Part shown: positions 16,985-38,524 of the stretch, in pieces
Position numbering within the stretch: position 1 is the stretch's first letter
Layout: each line of letters opens with the position of its first letter
Assembly: GCF_014466985.1 (NCBI RefSeq)
Contig: NZ_AP022826.1
Location: forward strand, 1,054,001-1,118,000
Length of the DNA: 64,000 nt
Direction of reading: 5' to 3'
DNA from: Nitrosophilus labii
GTDB taxonomy: Bacteria > Campylobacterota > Campylobacteria > Campylobacterales > Nitratiruptoraceae
Program-made: the position numbers and the translations under genes
Notes under the pieces: model-generated
The model's input: the letters and a program-made list of their open reading frames with translations, nothing else
The model's database searches: none
Told to the model about the DNA's origin: nothing

Positions 16985-17890
16985 CTAAGAACTACCTACT
17001 TTTAATCTTACATATACCCTTTTTGGTGCAGGATAGCCTTCAACAGTCAAATTTGGATTATCTTTGTCTAAAAAATCCTCTAAACTCTCGCCTAAAATCC
17101 ATTTAGTTTTTCTCTGTTCTTCAAATGTAGTAGGTTTTTTAGCCAAAACCTCAAAACTATCAAATCCCGCTTTTTCGCACCAGTTTTTCAAAGCCGCAAC
17201 AGTAGGAACAAAATGCACATTGGAAATTTTTGAGTATGTTTTAGCAGGACATAACGCTATAGGTTCTTCTCCTTCAATATAAAAAGTATCCAGATAGACT
17301 TCTCCATCTCTTTTTAGACCCTGTTTTAGCCACTTAAGCATCACTATAGGATCGCTCCTGTGATATAAAACCCCCAAACAAAAAATTACGTCGAACTTTT
17401 TATGATAAAAAGGAAGATGTTCTACTCCTAAAAGCTCATAAACAATATCGCTTTTTACGTAACGATTGATAAAATCAAACTGCGTTTTAAATAGGGGAGA
17501 AGGATCAAACCCGACTATCTCTTTTGGTTTTTCTTTTAACATTCTAAACATATAATATCCGTTGTTACAGCCGATATCGGCTACGCTCTTTCCTTTTAGA
17601 TGAAAATGTTTTTTTAAAAGGTTATATTTGATATTACTTTTCCATTCACTATCTATAAAGGTACCAAAAATATCAAAAGGACCTTTTCTCCAAGGTCTTA
17701 GAGCTAAAGAAACCTCACTTATATACTCTCTTTGCTGCTTTGTAACTTCACCTTCTATTTTCACAACATCTTCGAGTTCTATTTTGCTTACATTAATATC
17801 GGGAAGTATTGAAAGTAATTCTCTTAGAGGAGCTATATTTTTCCACTTAAGCCAAGATTTTCTTTCTTTTTTAATACTTTCAATATCCAC
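16985..17890 (-). CDS. cmoB: tRNA U34 carboxymethyltransferase CmoB
   Basis: CmoB transfers a carboxymethyl group from carboxy-SAM to 5-hydroxyuridine at the tRNA wobble position. The 301-residue protein has the CmoB N-terminal region, the [13 protein letters not shown] segment near 81-93, SAM-site [15 protein letters not shown] near 114-128, and [13 protein letters not shown] near 175-187. Length is normal. The partner CmoA is not in this window. A fragment of a nucleoside phosphorylase gene lies divergently just beyond its start. Confidence 0.94.
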
Positions 17891-29285: not shown

Positions 29286-29500
29286 TTAAGGGTCAAGACT
29301 AGTTTAGAGGTTCCTCTATAAAGTTTTTTATAAGAATTTTAATAAATCATTATGACGATTATTAAATAAACTCGCACTCTTTTAAGTGTAAATTGAATTT
29401 GTCTTTAGAAGAGAGTCCTTTAAATTTATATAATCTCATTTTAGCATAACTTCAAAATGATTCTATGCCATTAATGTGATTCTTTTTGCAAATTCATTTT
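29286..29500 (-). pseudogene. IS1595-family transposase, C-terminal remnant
   Basis: On the minus strand one frame reads KKNHINGIESF, a stop where tryptophan is expected, then SYAKMRLYKFKGLSSKDKF and NLHLKECEF, followed by a frame change to NNRHNDLLKF. This is the C-terminal block of ISXO2-like (IS1595) transposases, including the glutamate of the DDE-type triad. It has one nonsense change and at least one frameshift. The IS3 copy 2 lies directly against its upstream side. Confidence 0.72.
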
Positions 29501-29950
29501 CTCCATTGACCTGCTCCAAAAAGTGGGTCCAATTACAGAGTTAGTAATTGATTTAAGCTTTTGTCCATTGGCAGCTCTATCACTACTCCATACATGATTT
29601 GTATGTTGTGAACACATTTTTATTGGATTGGTTTCTAGTCTTTTTCTTTTTGGTCTCTTCTTTGGAAGTTGGAGGTTTAGCATATACCATATCCGATATA
29701 CTCTTTTGATATTTATGGTCTCTTTTAATCGCCAGCTTAGCATTACCGCTATACGCCCGTATCCAAAGCGTGGATAGATTTCACTTATACTTTTGAGTAA
29801 ATCCCTCAAAGGTTTGTCTTTCTTAGGTTGCTTGGGTTCATATACAAACTGGGAACGGCTAATACCTATCTCTTTGCATGCCCGCTGCTGGGATATCTTA
29901 TGACTCATCATCATTTTTACAGCTTCTCTTTTTGCAGTGGACGTTACCAC
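29471..29950 (-). pseudogene. IS3-family OrfB, truncated, copy 2
   Basis: It encodes the same 148 residues as the copy at 18384, ending in the terminal repeat (GPTFWSRS), then reads a few codons into flanking DNA (EKMNLQKESH). It lacks most of the catalytic core and cannot be active. Confidence 0.87.
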
Positions 29951-30273
29951 TTTTTTTCTGTTATTTCCTTGAGCGCTTCGTTAACCAGTAGTTGCTCTGA
30001 TAGAAGTTTTTTGAGCTTGGCATTCTCTTTTTCAAGTTCTTTGAGTCTTTTTACCTCACTTACGCTCATCCCGCCATACATACATTTCCATTTGTAAAAT
30101 GTCTGCTCACTTATATTATATTTGCGAATAACTTCTCTTTGGGTATCCGCTTTTTGAACCTCTTGTAATATTTTTACAACCTTCTCTTCACTGAATCTTT
30201 TCTTCATCTGCTACTCCAGTAGTTTTATTATACTCTAACTCTGATCTTGGCCCAATTTTTGGGAAGCAGGTTA
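29507..30273 (-). mobile_element. Internally deleted IS3-family element, copy 2 (767 bp)
   Basis: It has the same length and layout as copy 1 at 18061-18827, in the opposite orientation, with the same internal deletion of orfB. The orfA-side end differs by one base (TAACCTG instead of TGACCTG, counting from the outside). It separates an IS1595 remnant from an IS1634 remnant. No clear target duplication is visible. Confidence 0.88.
29944..30207 (-). CDS. IS3-family OrfA, copy 2
   Basis: The 87-residue product is identical to that of the copy at 18127-18390, with helix-turn-helix and coiled coil, and ends at the same A7G slippery run. The identity indicates a recent common origin of both copies. 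Confidence 0.88.
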   Translation of the reverse strand: MKKRFSEEKVVKILQEVQKADTQREVIRKYNISEQTFYKWKCMYGGMSVSEVKRLKELEKENAKLKKLLSEQLLVNEALKEITEKKW

Positions 30274-30610
30274 GAATAAGATGGCGAAAAATATCCCTTT
30301 TCTTTTTGTTCTCAAAAGCTATTTTTGCACATCCTAAATCATCAAAAATTTTACCAAATATAAGCTCATCTCCAATAACTCTTATATCTTTGTTTGATAG
30401 TTTTCTTTAGGAAGAACTATATTCAAGATAGTCTAAAAGCGAAGGCTCTAACTCCTTGAGTCGTTCTTTTGCCTTTTGAAATAAAATCTCAATTTCTTTC
30501 TTATCTTTACTACAACCTACACTCTCTACAACCCTATATTTACCGCCTCTTTTTGAAATAATTTGAATACTAATACTACCACTTTGATTTTTCTTCTTTC
30601 TTATAAACAT
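30274..30610 (-). pseudogene. IS1634-family transposase, N-terminal remnant
   Basis: It starts MFIRKKKNQSGSISIQIISK, the typical beginning of IS1634 transposases, and runs 67 codons to a stop. A frame change then continues the match (DIRVIGDELIFGKIFDDLG, then DIFRHLI) until the IS3 copy 2 cuts it off. It is broken by both a frameshift and a truncation. Confidence 0.8.
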
Positions 30611-30794
30611 AAACTCATTATATCAAATCCTGTAAAATATCAAGACACCCTGACCCCTCTCTTCTAAACCTCTCTAAACCCATTTTCATGGGACTTCTGC
30701 CCCCTCTCTTTAAAAAGTGAGAATGTCAGGAGTTAGTAAAAAGGTTATTAGTTTTTTTAACAACTTTTAAATATTTAGCTATTTTATTCTACGA

Positions 30795-31175
30795 TTAATA
30801 TGGTTTCATTTTATAACGTTTATAAATTTTGACATTTTGGATAAAGGGTTCTTGTTTCAACTGTTGTGACAATTTCGTTATATCTATGTTTTTACCAATA
30901 ACATCAAATATACAAATTCGATGGGCAATACATTTTTTTAATTTAAGTTGATAGCGGCTTTCAAGCTCTTCTATATAAATTGACTTTTTTCGGTTTAAAA
31001 TAACTTGGATTTGAGATGAATTAACAGAGTTGTTTTCAGGAATACTGGAAAAATTCTCATTAGTTTTTCGATCACCGACAGTCGATGGATGCTCTTGTTT
31101 AAATTTTAATAATTCTTGATAATCTTTGGCAACCACTCCAATCAATAAACAAAACATAAATATTATAGTTTTCAT
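30795..31175 (-). CDS. Small exported protein, possible subtilase propeptide-like chaperone/inhibitor
   Basis: A 126-residue protein with an N-terminal signal peptide (1 to about 16). The C-terminal 70 residues alternate strands and helices (YIEELESRYQLKLKKCI, ICIFDVIGKNIDITKLSQQL, FIQNVKIYKRYK) in the way of inhibitor-I9-type propeptides of subtilisins, with two cysteines that could pair. It begins 2 bp after the stop of the subtilisin-like protease gene, so the two are co-translated. The hypothesis that it acts in trans as chaperone or inhibitor is my inference; I do not recognise a named family. Confidence 0.55.
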   Translation of the reverse strand: MKTIIFMFCLLIGVVAKDYQELLKFKQEHPSTVGDRKTNENFSSIPENNSVNSSQIQVILNRKKSIYIEELESRYQLKLKKCIAHRICIFDVIGKNIDITKLSQQLKQEPFIQNVKIYKRYKMKPY

Positions 31176-31177
31176 TT

Positions 31178-33721
31178 TTATTCCTTGTGACCAAATATTT
31201 CTAAAGTAATTGAGTTTAAAGTACCGCTATCCCCTTCTAACCGATCAGTTATTTCAACTTTCCAGTATCCTTCACTCTTTTCACCCATAAAAGCCAATGA
31301 ACTAAAACGAAAACCTCCATTATACCCATCATAATTAATCTCATTGGGAGTAATTATAAGCGTACGTGTTCCTGATGGTGAGGTTAATGCTATCTCAAGA
31401 TCTCCAGAATATGTGTGATCAGTATCTATTGTTAATCCTACCCATTCTGTCACAAAATTGTCTTTAAAATATACTGATTTTGAAATTGTGGTATTATTAT
31501 CTGGAATAGAAATTTCCAAATTTGATAAAGTAATACTTGCATTTATCTCTTCCGGCAACAATTCGTAATAAGGGGATTTACATTTTTCTATCATTTTAGA
31601 AGGATTTATTAACCCAAAACCGTAATTAATGTTATGCCATAATCCTGCATCGTTTTGTATCCAATGACTATCATTTTCATCTATCTTTTTTGCAGTACTC
31701 GCAATAAGCCACTTAACATCTCTCCATGTTAAATCAGGACATGCTTCAAGAACTAACGCAATTACGCCAGAAACCATCGGAGTCGCTGCACTCGTGCCAT
31801 TCATAGCAAAAGTATAATTACGTCCAGTATCTTCATCTACGGTAATTGCACCAATTTCTCCGTTTAATTCACTCTCGTAATAAGAACGTCCCATTAATAA
31901 AGTTGTAGCTATAGTTGGTGCTATATAGTAATATTCCCCGCCATACGCAGAAACTAAAATATTGCTACCAGGATTAGAATAACTTGCAAACTTATTTTCA
32001 TGATTTAAAGCGGCAACTGTAATAACATAACGATTATTTGCTAGATAAGAAAGATTAGCATTGCCATAATTTTCTCTATCATTTCCAGAAGGAACCGTAA
32101 AAATTCTACCTTTTTTATCTCTTAAATCTGATGTGGCAAGCTCTAAAATCGTTTCAAAACTTTTATCGTTTAAAAAATATGCTCCCCAACTATTGTTACT
32201 TACAAGTATATCATTAGCCCAATCAGCACTGTACCATAAATATTCAAGGTCCTCTAAAGATTGGTTTTCTAACCAATTACTTCCAGCAATAGTAGCATAT
32301 GGAACAACTCCCCTAACTCCTTTTCCATTTCTAGCCCTTGCCGCAATAATTCCAGCAACTGCAGTACCATGTCCAACTACTAAAGGCGAACTTTTATCTA
32401 TTGTAGAAACATTTGAAGTTGGTGTAGGATCATTTGTTTTTGTAACTGAGTTAAAGGATCTATTTAAATCAACATATAGATCTTCATGATCCTTTTCAAC
32501 ACCAGTATCAACTACTTGAATAACTGTTTCATATCCATCATGTTTACCTACAAAATTATGATATACGTTTAAGATATCTAAATCGTTTCCGATTATAGTT
32601 GACACGCCCTTTGTATTTGATACCGATAATCCTCTACTATCAATATGCCATTGAAGATAAAATAGAGGATCACCTTCTAAACCATCAACTATACCGGTAT
32701 TATCTTCATCCTGATTTAACGGATCTAAACCTTCTAAAAGTTCAACTCCATCTGGTATGAAATCATTGTCACTATCTGAAGCTGTTGCATTTGTTTCACC
32801 ATAAAACTCTGTATAGTCACTTAAAAAATCGTAATCTGTATCGGAAATTGTAGGATTAAGGCCATTTTGAATCTCAATATTATCATACAATCCATCATTA
32901 TCGCTATCTCTGTTTAATGGATTGGTGCCTATCAATAACTCTTCTTCCAATGTAAGATTATCCCCATCCACATCACTCAGCAAAACTTCGGTAAGATTTT
33001 CATCATTTAATATCGCTTGAGTAAAATTGTTTTCAAGCAGCTGAATGTAAAGTCTAGGATTTTTAAAAAAGTTATTTTCAGTATTGCTAGGAATATATGA
33101 GTAAATATCTCTATAATCTATAATATCATCTTCATTAACACTTAAACGAAAAATATCTTTTGCAAAAGCATTTAAAAAATTTACGATTTCGGTTGAGTTT
33201 TTTAGTTTAAGTTCTTTTACTTTATGAGCTGCCCAGGTAGTAAGAGCATTAACAATTACTTTACCCTCTTTTAAATCTGATAGTAAAACATATCCATTTA
33301 TAATCCCTTTTAAATTTTTAAAAGAACTATCAATATTTAAATCATCATCAACATCTACATCATAACCGTTCGTCACTTCAATATATACTAATCCATCACT
33401 ATTTACAGGAAAGTTTTCAAAATCTATCTCAAAAATACCCGCAGGTAAATCTGGCCAACTATATTCTGTTATAGATTGATTAAAAGATGAGGTAGTAGTA
33501 TTAAAATCAAAATCTTCATCTATTATTTTAATAGAAACGTTAGCTTCGGCAATCGGCCCTAACAATACATAATTGGAAATTATTGATTTAGATTCTTCAT
33601 TTGTTTCATTAGCTGATGATACCGGTTCATTACTATTTCCTCCTCCCCCACATCCATTAAAACTTATAGCAAACAGCACAAGGCTGTTTGCTATCAACTT
33701 TTTTAGAAAACTATTTCTCAA
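31178..33721 (-). CDS. Subtilisin-like (S8) lipoprotein protease with TSP3 repeats and P domain
   Basis: An 847-residue secreted serine protease. A signal peptide ends at a Cys followed by GGGG (FNGCGGGG), suggesting lipid anchoring, though the lipobox is imperfect. About 240-340 holds thrombospondin-type-3-like calcium repeats (DSDNDGLYDNIE, DSDNDFIPDGVE). The catalytic triad is visible: Asp in VVDTGVEKDHED near 405, His in GHGTAVAGI near 449, Ser in NGTSAATPMVSG near 643. Residues about 735-845 form a proprotein-convertase P domain (YSGDLEIALTSPSGT). The start is TTG, chosen because AAGGA lies at the right distance. It overlaps the large lipoprotein gene by 11 bp. Confidence 0.93.
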   Translation of the reverse strand: MRNSFLKKLIANSLVLFAISFNGCGGGGNSNEPVSSANETNEESKSIISNYVLLGPIAEANVSIKIIDEDFDFNTTTSSFNQSITEYSWPDLPAGIFEIDFENFPVNSDGLVYIEVTNGYDVDVDDDLNIDSSFKNLKGIINGYVLLSDLKEGKVIVNALTTWAAHKVKELKLKNSTEIVNFLNAFAKDIFRLSVNEDDIIDYRDIYSYIPSNTENNFFKNPRLYIQLLENNFTQAILNDENLTEVLLSDVDGDNLTLEEELLIGTNPLNRDSDNDGLYDNIEIQNGLNPTISDTDYDFLSDYTEFYGETNATASDSDNDFIPDGVELLEGLDPLNQDEDNTGIVDGLEGDPLFYLQWHIDSRGLSVSNTKGVSTIIGNDLDILNVYHNFVGKHDGYETVIQVVDTGVEKDHEDLYVDLNRSFNSVTKTNDPTPTSNVSTIDKSSPLVVGHGTAVAGIIAARARNGKGVRGVVPYATIAGSNWLENQSLEDLEYLWYSADWANDILVSNNSWGAYFLNDKSFETILELATSDLRDKKGRIFTVPSGNDRENYGNANLSYLANNRYVITVAALNHENKFASYSNPGSNILVSAYGGEYYYIAPTIATTLLMGRSYYESELNGEIGAITVDEDTGRNYTFAMNGTSAATPMVSGVIALVLEACPDLTWRDVKWLIASTAKKIDENDSHWIQNDAGLWHNINYGFGLINPSKMIEKCKSPYYELLPEEINASITLSNLEISIPDNNTTISKSVYFKDNFVTEWVGLTIDTDHTYSGDLEIALTSPSGTRTLIITPNEINYDGYNGGFRFSSLAFMGEKSEGYWKVEITDRLEGDSGTLNSITLEIFGHKE

Positions 33722-36700
33722 ATAGCTTCCTTATATCGTAACCTATACTTAGAGGATTTAACGTTTTTAATCTTTCAACTTTATTAGATACAGTTGAAGA
33801 TTGTGAAGTTAACGTCGAATCAACATTTAAGTTATCTATATACAATCTTCTACTTCCACTAGAATATAATGTATGATGATCAAAATCGAAGTCGTTAACG
33901 GCATTTAAAAAGTCCTCTTCTGTCATATTTTTAAATTCTGTCATCTCCATCCATAAATACTCGTATGATGGAGAGGTTTTAAAGTAATTTGCCACTGATG
34001 TCGGCAGTATTGAGCTAACATCAGGTAATGTTACAGACGTTGGAGCTATCGTAAAGTAAAAATTAATCTCTGCACTGTAGCTTTCACCGGTAGTAGTATT
34101 GTACTCATTAGCACTGTAACTTATTTTTGTCAAATTAACTTTAGCCAGATCTGCTCCACTAAACCCTACACTATCGTTACCAAAAGTAGGAGTGATATCC
34201 AAATATGGATAATCTTCCGAATTGTAAGTTTGCTTCAAAGTACCGTCACCGTAATAATTATAATGTTCATATCCGTAAGATATGTTAGTAACGCTGTCGT
34301 TAATCCATTTAGAACCACTTATTTGATAAGTTAAATCCGGACTATTAACGTATTTTCTAACAAACTGACTAGTATTGCTGTCATAATCGACGGTGTATGC
34401 ATTTACATACAACGACTTATAGTATGGAATTATACTTAAATAGTCGTTATTTGTAATAATATCGACCTTAGTATCGGCGATTAAAGTAAAATCACTCGGT
34501 GTTACTGTTATATTTGCGATTTCATCTGCAGTTTTATCTTTCAAAAGATAAAATTTGCTATTTCCATCACTATCCAAATATCTGAAAAACAACGAATACA
34601 AACCATCTGATTGAGGAGTCAAATAAGATAGAGTTGTGCTTCCTGTTCCGTTTGCATCTATAGATATATAACCGTAACTACTACCGGAAATTTCGATACT
34701 TCCATAAGGAGTAAAACCGGTTACCGTGACATTGACTTTAGTAGAACAGTCATTTATATAATGGTGGTAGTCATCAAAATAGTATGGGTCTATAGAAATA
34801 TTATACGTCCTAACAGGAACGTTGATGTAAAAATTACTCTCAATCTTAGTTTCATTTTCATCTGTAAATTCATTCCAGGTAACTTTACCATCTCCATTCT
34901 TATCTTCTAGATCTACTACCGCATTATATATTTCGTTACTATCTAATGAACCGTCGTTGTTAGTATCTATTTCATCGGCAGTAACTGTTGGAGAATCTGG
35001 ATCATTTGCGATAACGAAATCAAATAACCAGTTTGGAATATAATTTGAAGAGTAAAGTGAACAAACATCCAAAGTTGAACATTCGGCAGGTTTTTCATTA
35101 TCTGGAACAGGACTATATTCTCCACATAGATATGAACCTTGATCTATAGCCCATTGCAAGATATCACTAAAAATCATATCTTGCGTTAATGCAAAATCAG
35201 GACCTACAGAAACTGAAAAGGTTGCTCTATCGCTACCAGTAACGTTAAATTGAGCAGTTCCTGTACTATCAGTAACTTTTTCTTCTATGATATTTAAAGT
35301 AGAAGTATCATAAAGCGCCACAATCAATCCAGGTAATTGTGTATTAATAACCAAATTACCAGAGGCGTTCGGATCTATTACATAAACTGTTGCCGATGCA
35401 GTACTTGATGCACCTTCAATATCTGTAGCGATACAACTGACCGTATAAACACCGGAATTGTCGAAGGTAGTTGTAAATGCAGTACTATCACTATCGCTAT
35501 AAATGGTATCATTTACACTCCAACTATATGTAACCTCATATCCTTCTGGATCTGTAGCTTCACATTCAAAAGTATATGAACTATTAACATTTACAGTAAC
35601 TGAAGTTGGAACTTTTTCAAAAATTGGCGGCTGATTTTGCCTAATAACTTCTACAGAAACATTTACAGTATTACTAACGTTACCACTACTATCAGTAGCT
35701 GATACAGCATATGTCAATATACCGTCATTTGCAGGACTTATCTCATCAGAAACATAATAGTTACTACCAGGATAGGCCTGATTTAACACAATTTCAGAAC
35801 CATTACTATCTTTTGCGGTAACATTTACATCATCATTTTCAGGATCATATACATACGCATACAACCTAAATGTTTCCCCTTTACTTATATCTACCATATA
35901 AGCATTTGCACCCGCCATAGAAATTTGCGGAGGTTTATTTCCAACATAAAAAGTAAATGTAGAGTTACTATCTAAATTACCGTCACTTGCTTTAACAACA
36001 AGTTCGTGTTCCCCTTTACTTAGCTGTACAACTTCATCATTAGCTACTACATTTCCATCAAGTGTATACTCCAATGAAACCATATCACCGTCAGGATCAT
36101 ACGCATACGCATGTAAGGTGTAGTTTCCTTCCATAATCTGACCAGTAATATAGTAGTACATATTATCAGTATCTAATAAATATGCTCCATAAACAACTGG
36201 GGCTCTGTTTTCATTAACGGTTAAATCGGCAGTTGCAGTATCTTGATTTTTACCATCATTAACTACAACATTTAACTGATATGTCCCAGCTGCAAGAGAA
36301 TTAGGGGCAATATTACTTACTTCCGTATTATCTAAAAGTAGTTTGATACTCATATACATATATCCGCTAGTCGAGTAAGTATCTATAAGTTCATAATGAG
36401 TTCCCTCTTTTAATTCAAAACCGTTTAGTTTTAATGATTCTATATTTATGGTATCTCCATCTCCATCATATGAAGAGATATAAACGTTTACTGACTCTGC
36501 TATATTACTTATTTGATAAGGAGAGAAATATACGTAAGTATTTGGTGGCTGATTCACATCTTGAATAGTTACGTAAGCATATTTTCCACTATCTGCCGTT
36601 TCATTTCCACTAACTATACCGTCAACATTAAATGTAGTGGTTGTTCCTTTATAATTTACTGTATATTCCGTATTAGGTTTGACTTTAACTTTAGCTTTTC

Positions 36701-38309
36701 CTTCACTATCTAAATAAATAGTTTTATAAAAATAATCACTATAACTATAATTATATACGTTTACATATCCGCTTCCCGTAGAATTATCGTCATTTATAGC
36801 AGTTATAGTCACTATTGCACTATAAGGATTTTCTATAGTTAAGTTAAGTTCATAATCACAACCTTCACTATTTGATTGTTTTAGAGAAGAGTTTATATCT
36901 ATAGGCGTCTCTGTCCAACCTGTTAGCACTCCAGAATAATAAAAACTATAATCATTTACACTTCCACTAGTTAAACTTATGGAACCAGTACCATTACTAT
37001 CTAAATATGTATATTCATAGGCCGTCTCTTTTTGAGCCGCAACCCTTATAGAATCGACTGGATTTCCATCTTGATCAACCGCACTAATACATACAATTTC
37101 AGGTTGTTCTAAAGCAAATGCATAATCAAGATTTAAATACTCTCCCCAATTTTCAGTTACGCACATAATAACATATGGCGAGCCTGTAGTATTATCTGGA
37201 TCATCTGCTGCAAAATACTCAGCTTCTCCTAAATATCTCCACATTCCACTTTGAGCATCATAGTACCACATAGGTACTTGGAAGCCGTTTGTACTATCAT
37301 TATCGTCATCACCATAAGCTTCTATCATATCAACTTGATCTTGAGAAAGATATCTTGTTTTTGTTTGTAAACAAGATGTGTAATCAAGCTCAGGAGAGAG
37401 TTTTGATTGCGTTAACACTGAAGCGTTCAGTTCTATCGGATCTCCGTTCTGATCGGTTAGCGATATTAAATCAAATGCTACTGATACAAGTTGCATAGGC
37501 TCACTAGTAGCCATAGTTCCACTATCTTTTCCTATTCCCTTATATTCTCCCGGAAAATATTTGCTATCCTCTTTTTTAGTAGGGTCAAACGCCTTTATCT
37601 TTGCATTAACTAATTTAACACTATCTGGAAAAGCAGAAAGAGGTATAACCGATTCTGAAATTGTATCTCCAAAAGAAGGATCAGCTTGTGTCTTTAGATC
37701 ATTTAAAGACATAATCTTAGCATAAGACTTAATCCCGGATATTGTATTTGATACACCTAGTTTTAAGAACATATTCTGTTTTGAAGTTGCATTAAAGTCA
37801 GATATATCAACAACTTGCGTATTAACAGGCACCGTCATTTCGGCATTTACGGTAACTGATTGACCGTTTTTTAATGAAATAATCTTTTTATAAGGTGCAA
37901 AATTATCTTTTTCTACGCTTAGTTGTGCCTTACTACCATTTTCTGCAACTTCTACAGCTCCAAAATCAAAGGAACCATCAGAATTAATTGCAGTTTGATA
38001 AACAGCATCTTTGCTACTTCCATATACTCCGTCATTATCTAAATCAACAATAAGAGTTGCAACCGCACTTGAATCATTAACCGTGGTAGCCGTCGGTACC
38101 AAACTAGAAGCAGCACCCACAGTAGTTGTTGAAGTTGCGCTTGCTGTTGTTCCACTAACAAATGCAGTAGATGTAGTCGTAACAGTTGTATCTGTCGGTG
38201 TAGGTGTTGATGTAGGAGTCGTACTGTCTCCACCTCCGCCTCCGCCACAGCCACTAAGTAAGAACAGCGCCACTGCAAAACTTATGGCTTTTTCTTTGAA
38301 TCGCCTCAT
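33711..38309 (-). CDS. Very large surface lipoprotein with Ig/PKD-like repeats and EF-hand loops
   Basis: About 1532 residues from the ATG at 38309, which has AAAGGA eight bases upstream (an in-frame ATG 15 bases earlier lacks this). Signal peptide and lipobox LLSGC (C21) are followed by a glycine run and a Thr/Pro-rich linker to about 70. After an N-terminal region of about 400 residues with no family I recognise, several beta-sandwich repeats follow, with boundaries like NRAPVVYGAY, NKPPQISMAG and NQPPIFEKVP; the last one resembles a PKD domain (YTFECEATDPEGYEVTYSWS). Two calcium-binding EF-hand or dockerin-type loops (DTNNDGSLDSNEI, DKNGDGKVTWNEF) lie near 1120-1150. It is probably an adhesin or matrix protein, and the first gene of an operon with the protease. 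Confidence 0.85.
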   Translation of the reverse strand: MRRFKEKAISFAVALFLLSGCGGGGGGDSTTPTSTPTPTDTTVTTTSTAFVSGTTASATSTTTVGAASSLVPTATTVNDSSAVATLIVDLDNDGVYGSSKDAVYQTAINSDGSFDFGAVEVAENGSKAQLSVEKDNFAPYKKIISLKNGQSVTVNAEMTVPVNTQVVDISDFNATSKQNMFLKLGVSNTISGIKSYAKIMSLNDLKTQADPSFGDTISESVIPLSAFPDSVKLVNAKIKAFDPTKKEDSKYFPGEYKGIGKDSGTMATSEPMQLVSVAFDLISLTDQNGDPIELNASVLTQSKLSPELDYTSCLQTKTRYLSQDQVDMIEAYGDDDNDSTNGFQVPMWYYDAQSGMWRYLGEAEYFAADDPDNTTGSPYVIMCVTENWGEYLNLDYAFALEQPEIVCISAVDQDGNPVDSIRVAAQKETAYEYTYLDSNGTGSISLTSGSVNDYSFYYSGVLTGWTETPIDINSSLKQSNSEGCDYELNLTIENPYSAIVTITAINDDNSTGSGYVNVYNYSYSDYFYKTIYLDSEGKAKVKVKPNTEYTVNYKGTTTTFNVDGIVSGNETADSGKYAYVTIQDVNQPPNTYVYFSPYQISNIAESVNVYISSYDGDGDTINIESLKLNGFELKEGTHYELIDTYSTSGYMYMSIKLLLDNTEVSNIAPNSLAAGTYQLNVVVNDGKNQDTATADLTVNENRAPVVYGAYLLDTDNMYYYITGQIMEGNYTLHAYAYDPDGDMVSLEYTLDGNVVANDEVVQLSKGEHELVVKASDGNLDSNSTFTFYVGNKPPQISMAGANAYMVDISKGETFRLYAYVYDPENDDVNVTAKDSNGSEIVLNQAYPGSNYYVSDEISPANDGILTYAVSATDSSGNVSNTVNVSVEVIRQNQPPIFEKVPTSVTVNVNSSYTFECEATDPEGYEVTYSWSVNDTIYSDSDSTAFTTTFDNSGVYTVSCIATDIEGASSTASATVYVIDPNASGNLVINTQLPGLIVALYDTSTLNIIEEKVTDSTGTAQFNVTGSDRATFSVSVGPDFALTQDMIFSDILQWAIDQGSYLCGEYSPVPDNEKPAECSTLDVCSLYSSNYIPNWLFDFVIANDPDSPTVTADEIDTNNDGSLDSNEIYNAVVDLEDKNGDGKVTWNEFTDENETKIESNFYINVPVRTYNISIDPYYFDDYHHYINDCSTKVNVTVTGFTPYGSIEISGSSYGYISIDANGTGSTTLSYLTPQSDGLYSLFFRYLDSDGNSKFYLLKDKTADEIANITVTPSDFTLIADTKVDIITNNDYLSIIPYYKSLYVNAYTVDYDSNTSQFVRKYVNSPDLTYQISGSKWINDSVTNISYGYEHYNYYGDGTLKQTYNSEDYPYLDITPTFGNDSVGFSGADLAKVNLTKISYSANEYNTTTGESYSAEINFYFTIAPTSVTLPDVSSILPTSVANYFKTSPSYEYLWMEMTEFKNMTEEDFLNAVNDFDFDHHTLYSSGSRRLYIDNLNVDSTLTSQSSTVSNKVERLKTLNPLSIGYDIRKLFEK

Positions 38310-38524
38310 GATGTATCCTTTCATAAAAACTTTTTTGAAATCTTTGCCAATCCTCCTCTTTATAAATTTATCTTAAATTTAGTTCTTATAGTTAAATATT
38401 GTCTATAAAGATAATGTTATATCTATAATAATATACTACATTTTCTTAATTTAGTTTTAAAATAAAATTTTTTAAATAATCTATTTAAAGAGATACAAAA
38501 TTAAAACAGACTATAATCCAAATT
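38310..38524. other. Intergenic region between divergent genes
   Basis: This 215-bp, very AT-rich gap separates the lipoprotein gene and the nucleoside phosphorylase gene and must hold both promoters. A TATAAT (38512-38517) lies only eight bases before the ATG at 38525, so that gene could have a very short or absent leader. No further structure is evident. Confidence 0.4.

Follow-up and report, generated by a model that had tools for sequence, protein, structure and literature searches.

A lipid-anchored kexin-like subtilase of Nitrosophilus labii encoded between a giant lipoprotein and a putative external propeptide

How does a subtilase without a recognizable propeptide of its own come to be folded, and what part is played by the two exported proteins encoded with it? 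These questions are raised by three co-oriented genes on the minus strand of the window (the whole 64-kb stretch of Nitrosophilus labii DNA analyzed here), whose open reading frames encode, from upstream to downstream, a giant lipoprotein, an S8 protease and a small exported protein (Table 1). We consider it quite probable that the protease, a lipid-anchored subtilase of the kexin-like type, no longer has a propeptide within its own chain and depends for folding on one supplied from a separate gene of this operon. The contacts between the genes were described in a first-pass annotation made from the sequence alone and are exact by the coordinates of the reading frames, with an 11-bp overlap between the giant and protease genes (33711-33721) and a 2-bp gap between the protease and small genes (31176-31177); the giant gene also has a possible internal ATG start at 38309, the one used in that annotation. 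The ribosome-binding sites of the protease and of the small gene lie inside the respective preceding genes, so that translation is probably coupled. At the local stop-codon frequency, chance open frames are ruled out for the protease (~5e-24 for 847 codons) and the giant (~5e-43 for 1537 codons), and orthologs exist for all three genes. A perfect 12-bp inverted repeat, ATAGCAAACAGC...GCTGTTTGCTAT (33666-33694), falls within the codons for the protease signal peptide and could act as a brake on translation or transcription.

Table 1 Positions of genes, domains and sites of the operon in the window.
Feature	Position	Strand	Description
Giant lipoprotein gene	33711..38324	-	1537 aa, lipobox LLSGC; full-length orthologs in G371, G181, G060 and L111
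S8 protease lipoprotein gene	31178..33721	-	847 aa, TTG start; lipid-bearing Cys is residue 24
Small exported protein gene	30795..31175	-	126 aa, ATG start, signal peptide ~residues 1-16; putative external propeptide-like chaperone/inhibitor, ORF2-like
AAGGAAG ribosome-binding site of protease TTG start	33726..33732	-	Within 3' end of giant gene; direct reading
AAGGA ribosome-binding site of small gene ATG	31182..31186	-	Within end of protease gene; direct reading
PKD domain of giant lipoprotein	35385..35636	-	Residues 897-980; PKD_4 E=4.7e-7, above curated cut-off
EF-hand-like calcium loops of giant lipoprotein	34863..34973	-	Residues 1118-1154; EF-hand E=0.002, below cut-off; stretch kept in orthologs
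TSP3-like Asp-rich calcium repeats of protease, N-terminal to catalytic domain	32672..32980	-	TSP3_bac E=1.8e-4 (below cut-off) and sequence
Peptidase_S8 catalytic domain	31682..32530	-	D405, H451, S644, oxyanion N547; Pfam E=4e-44
Kexin/furin-type P domain	31199..31447	-	P_proprotein E=2e-16
Predicted beta-alpha-beta-beta-alpha-beta core of small protein	30822..31013	-	Residues 55-118, AlphaFold; subclade-specific Cys82/Cys88 pair at beta2-beta3 hairpin
C-terminal tail KRYKMKPY of small protein	30798..30821	-	Same end column in 37/37 aligned relatives; ORF2 precedent PMC5638518

The domains that the first-pass annotation had read in the two large proteins (a catalytic triad, calcium repeats and a P domain in the protease, Ig/PKD-type repeats and EF-hand loops in the giant) are borne out by profile matches, those to TSP3_bac and EF-hand falling below their cut-offs. 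The triad and the oxyanion asparagine of the protease are kept in 62 of 62 tabulated family members. When the protease sequence was searched against the PDB, ASP of Aeromonas sobria ranked first (3hjr/3wqb, E=1e-41), with furin and kexin next. A search with its structure model among 350,542 PDB chains likewise placed the ASP:ORF2 complex at the top (3wqb_A, E=3e-35), followed by 3hjr, furin and Kex2, and the mirolase-potempin C complex was also listed; the model has a mean pLDDT of 68 and is good for the P domain and the C-terminal half of the catalytic domain. Two other identities were rejected, as the protease scored 71.9 bits against the NCBIfam model of dentilisin PrtP (NF033595, cut-off 300) and gave just weak generic S8 matches to the IetS/subtilase models of anti-phage proteases in PADLOC and NCBIfam. 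The genome encodes one more lipoprotein protease with S8 and P domains (L092 2554-4875; C1, ~908 kb), which has no adjoining small gene and clusters with copies from the same genus.

No I9 or prodomain match was found by Pfam in the window protease, and no protease of the family contains a recognizable fused copy of the small protein. AlphaFold models the N-terminal region of the window protease (residues 24-340) at low confidence, as strands and then helices with no propeptide pattern, a confidence at which this region might still hide a cis propeptide. In several relatives, the catalytic domain begins 8-60 residues from the N-terminus of the protease.

The candidate for the missing propeptide is the small protein. 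AlphaFold predicts the elements E55-60, H65-75, E77-82, E87-92, H99-107 and E112-118 followed by a free tail, with pLDDT mostly above 90 in the core, and their order is that of subtilisin/convertase propeptides, not an unrelated fold. An I9-type propeptide pattern had been proposed for this protein; the S8-propeptide order of that proposal stands, whereas the Inhibitor_I9 profile matched neither the window protein nor its relatives in the family tally. The top TM-scores in Foldseek were to the PC1/3 prodomain bound to furin (0.68-0.72 by target), and ORF2 (2mk4) was also listed; no match had an E-value below 0.001, the values being non-significant because ferredoxin-like folds are common. The prodomains of furin and PC1/3, although alike in predicted fold order, are part of the protease chain. 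Among Pfam families, only ORF_2_N (PF18492; 7 relatives, best E=5.9e-6) and the Fervidolysin prodomain (4 relatives) were matched by more than one of 37 relatives of the small protein. None of these relatives reached the curated ORF_2_N cut-off, the window protein itself scoring 13.0 bits against a cut-off of 29.2 (E=0.12), and a PDB sequence search with the small-protein family gave no match to ORF2. A profile built from 33 small proteins, from which the four giant-associated ones had been left out, picked out the window protein from 2055 open reading frames with E=9.9e-8, with L043 next at 2.5e-4 and L044 and L046 weak.

The C-terminal residue is Tyr in 15 of the 37 relatives, Arg in 9 and Lys in 1, and is Tyr in the window protein. 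By analogy with ORF2, we propose that the tail plugs the active site of the protease in the manner of a bound product, and the terminal Tyr would fit an aromatic P1 preference; a comparison of the last residue with the S1-pocket residues of the proteases gave no clean pattern of co-variation.

The pairing of protease and small gene extends well beyond the window. A first scan of genome contigs with the protease alone as query returned no matches; at E<=1e-40, the protease is found in 49 of the 399 genomes of the order. The DNA around the matches yielded 63 protease genes, three of them at a contig edge, leaving 60 testable. A small exported-protein gene (97-171 aa) lies directly downstream in 45 of these 60 (44 assigned automatically, plus L044, where the open reading frame had been called from too early a start) and directly upstream in 3, that is, on either side in 48, with 12 proteases lacking an adjoining small gene. 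From the other direction, PF18492 was matched four times in 298 genomes of the phylum, each time next to such a protease. The gene order, whose conservation had been put forward as a check on the operon, is thus kept for this pair at 48 of the testable loci and for the full trio in four genomes. Where the small gene is upstream, in a propeptide-like position (L083 8482-8913, L084 8531-8923 and L097 2921-3331), it is separated from the protease gene by 1 bp or overlaps it, and the proteases of L083 and L084 have ~8 residues ahead of their catalytic domain. One genome (G107) has an orphan ORF2-like small protein (L008 1381-1752) with no adjoining protease and a protease (L073) with no small neighbor, and the pair may be split there. 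The shared operon could also be taken to mean that the giant lipoprotein, and not the protease, is what the small protein acts for. More than 40 loci have the protease and the small gene with no adjoining giant, and all three genes are adjacent only in G000, G371, G181 and L111; this distribution nearly excludes such a role, which we regard as extremely improbable.

A protease and small protein of this kind are known. The nascent form of ASP needs ORF2, which is encoded just downstream and places its C-terminus at the catalytic site of ASP (PMC5638518), and vvsAB of Vibrio vulnificus fits the same description, in a group termed chymotrypsin-like (PMC3831164). As in ASP/ORF2 and VvsA/VvsB, the window encodes a kexin-like S8 protease with a P domain and, directly downstream, a small exported protein with a propeptide-like fold whose conserved end is its C-terminus. 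The window protease differs from ASP in being a lipoprotein and in having calcium repeats and an extended N-terminus. ORF2 ends in a Lys located at the catalytic Ser, whereas the last residue of the small protein is Tyr; in its clade, the small protein also has a Cys-x5-Cys pair. The operon further differs from that of ASP/ORF2 in the giant lipoprotein gene that precedes the pair and in its host, a member of the Campylobacterota. The first-pass annotation did not recognize a described system here, a statement that no longer applies to the protease/small pair and is left to the giant, whose apparent tie to the pair looks new.

By this analogy, the small protein is most likely an external propeptide acting as foldase and temporary inhibitor. 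It had been suggested to be a trans-acting inhibitor, which the ASP/ORF2 precedent recasts as a folding chaperone in the first place and an inhibitor for a limited time. Signal peptides would take all three proteins across the inner membrane. The 126-residue protein, folded like a propeptide, would then bind the nascent catalytic domain, template its folding and plug its active site with KMKPY-COOH, as ORF2 does with ASP; the fold and the pairing in this step are computational, and we infer the binding and the foldase action. The protease would stay silent in the periplasm until export and become free when the small protein is broken down or stays behind. If the small protein were instead solely an inhibitor that guards the periplasm, in the manner of potempins and free I9 inhibitors, no foldase action would be required of it. 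ORF2 does also inhibit ASP (IC50 84 nM, PMC5638518), which is consistent with that idea. So are the mirolase-potempin C complex among the structural matches of the protease and a bacterial alpha-2-macroglobulin with a bait region, a type of protease trap, that adjoins the protease/small pair in G060 (L046 5149-10395). S8 enzymes of this type, however, normally need a propeptide to fold, and the relatives with a catalytic domain close to the N-terminus leave no room for one in cis, so a purely inhibitory role seems unlikely to us.

The foldase reading leaves the giant lipoprotein to be placed. This protein consists of a conserved N-terminal region, Ig/PKD-type repeats, EF-hand-like calcium loops and a conserved C-terminus of the NPLSIG type. 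Full-length orthologs are present in 4 of 399 genomes (G000, G371, G181 and G060), and a second draw of 397 genomes contained no further one. A scan of named genomes identified the complete trio in a Sulfurimonas MAG (L111) and partial copies of the giant in one Helicobacteraceae MAG and one Campylobacteraceae MAG. A diverged copy with 28% identity in a Desulfurobacterium MAG (L115 1779-6035) suggests horizontal transfer or mis-binning; it lies on a short contig without a protease and so speaks neither for nor against a link between giant and protease. In G060, the giant is unlinked to the protease, on a separate contig. The four proteases from the giant-bearing genomes group in a single clade (98% SH-aLRT support), which comprises exactly those of the 399 genomes that have a full-length giant, and the Cys-x5-Cys pair at the beta2-beta3 hairpin is common to the small proteins of these genomes and L111 and absent in the other aligned relatives. 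The contiguous genes, the single clade and the common Cys pair together are good evidence that the giant is functionally tied to this protease subclade, as a dedicated partner that would be either substrate or scaffold, and do not tell these two roles apart. The self-contained three-gene system envisaged earlier holds for this one subclade; elsewhere, most protease/small pairs occur without a giant.

As a substrate, the giant would be processed, matured or shed by the protease, as FhaB is by SphB1 or PrcA by PrtP. The overlapping genes, the order kept in four genomes and the strict co-occurrence of the giant with one protease clade all fit, and there is a precedent in the PrtP-dependent cleavage of the co-operonic lipoprotein PrcA, which is not clean because PrcA was still found cleaved in a mutant of the catalytic Ser (PMC8167434). 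Yet most members of the protease family come without a giant, and a cleavage motif modelled on the small-protein C-termini (hydrophobic-K/R-x-Y) was neither enriched nor conserved in the giants. On balance we hold processing of the giant to be possible but somewhat doubtful. The dentilisin operon PrcB-PrcA-PrtP of Treponema denticola resembles that of the window in having three genes and in joining a lipid-anchored subtilase to a partner lipoprotein, but the PrtP chain includes a propeptide, with cleavage after residue 158, and PrcB is a 23-kDa lipoprotein. SphB1 of Bordetella, a lipid-anchored surface subtilase whose target there is the very large surface protein FhaB, differs from the window protease in being an autotransporter with no linked gene for a separate propeptide. 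A giant that keeps the protease in a surface complex as scaffold or anchor, with no role as substrate, while the protease breaks down protein from the environment as a source of food, is also conceivable, and we entertain it tentatively. Such a structural or adhesive role suits the architecture of calcium loops and Ig/PKD repeats, and the dentilisin subunits do form a stable complex (PMC8167434), although a protease that is already lipid-anchored has no need of an anchor.

Either role would place both lipoproteins at the outer surface, which they would probably reach by the type II secretion system (T2SS), as suggested by gene adjacency in two species and the presence of a T2SS in the genome. 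On the same strand downstream of the trio, L111 and L112 carry T2SS genes: in L111, GspG, GspF, a PDZ GspC-like protein and GspD follow directly, and in L112, pseudopilins follow one intervening 1852-aa Ig/cadherin-repeat protein. In the Nitrosophilus labii genome, the T2SS is located elsewhere, with GspD above the NCBIfam cut-off and a weak GspN-like protein. After the lipobox, both lipoproteins have a stretch of the Gly/Ser type (C-GGGGGGDST in the giant, C-GGGGNSNEP in the protease), as do other lipoproteins of the genome. An Acinetobacter T2SS with GspN exports lipoproteins that have a Gly/Ser-rich or Asn/Asp-rich stretch in this position (PMC12802150). PulA and InvL, surface lipoproteins exported by T2SS, share with the two window proteins the lipobox and ensuing Gly/Ser-rich stretch, and in two relatives the trio lies near T2SS genes; here, unlike for PulA and InvL, the case is drawn from sequence and gene adjacency, and Gly-rich lipoproteins are common in the genome.

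The operon lies in a part of the chromosome that differs between sister species. The genes at 16985 and 38525 are 20.6 kb apart in the window, but their homologs are separated by ~200 bp in G003 and 55 bp in G004, both sister species of the same genus, and the block between them (17890-38525) is therefore variable in the genus. It contains several transposase genes, sensor-like genes, a two-component pair and two tRNAs in addition to the operon. The phosphorylase-like gene next to the trio also adjoins it in L111 and G371, which hints that the arrangement is old and was lost in the sisters, and did not arrive recently. Directly downstream of the small gene, 29471-30740 resembles the remnant of a transposase, with an IS3-type element at 29471-30207.

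One may go further and picture a surface proteolysis unit, in which the lipid-anchored kexin-like protease, folded and silenced by its separate propeptide, is exported by the T2SS together with the giant and cuts or sheds it, the protease, the Cys-pair propeptide and the giant co-evolving; in this full form the proposal is speculative and rather unlikely. The pair itself is of the kind described as ASP/ORF2 in Aeromonas and VvsA/VvsB in Vibrio, and the novelty lies in the host group, the lipid-anchored form, the scale and the tie of one subclade to the giant lipoprotein. The ASP/ORF2 arrangement, which the literature considered here places in a few genera of gamma- and beta-proteobacteria, is now found in about one in eight of the sampled Campylobacterota genomes, mostly as lipoproteins. 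These more than 40 natural pairs of protease and putative chaperone, with the small gene on one side or the other, are material for understanding how propeptides act outside the protease chain.
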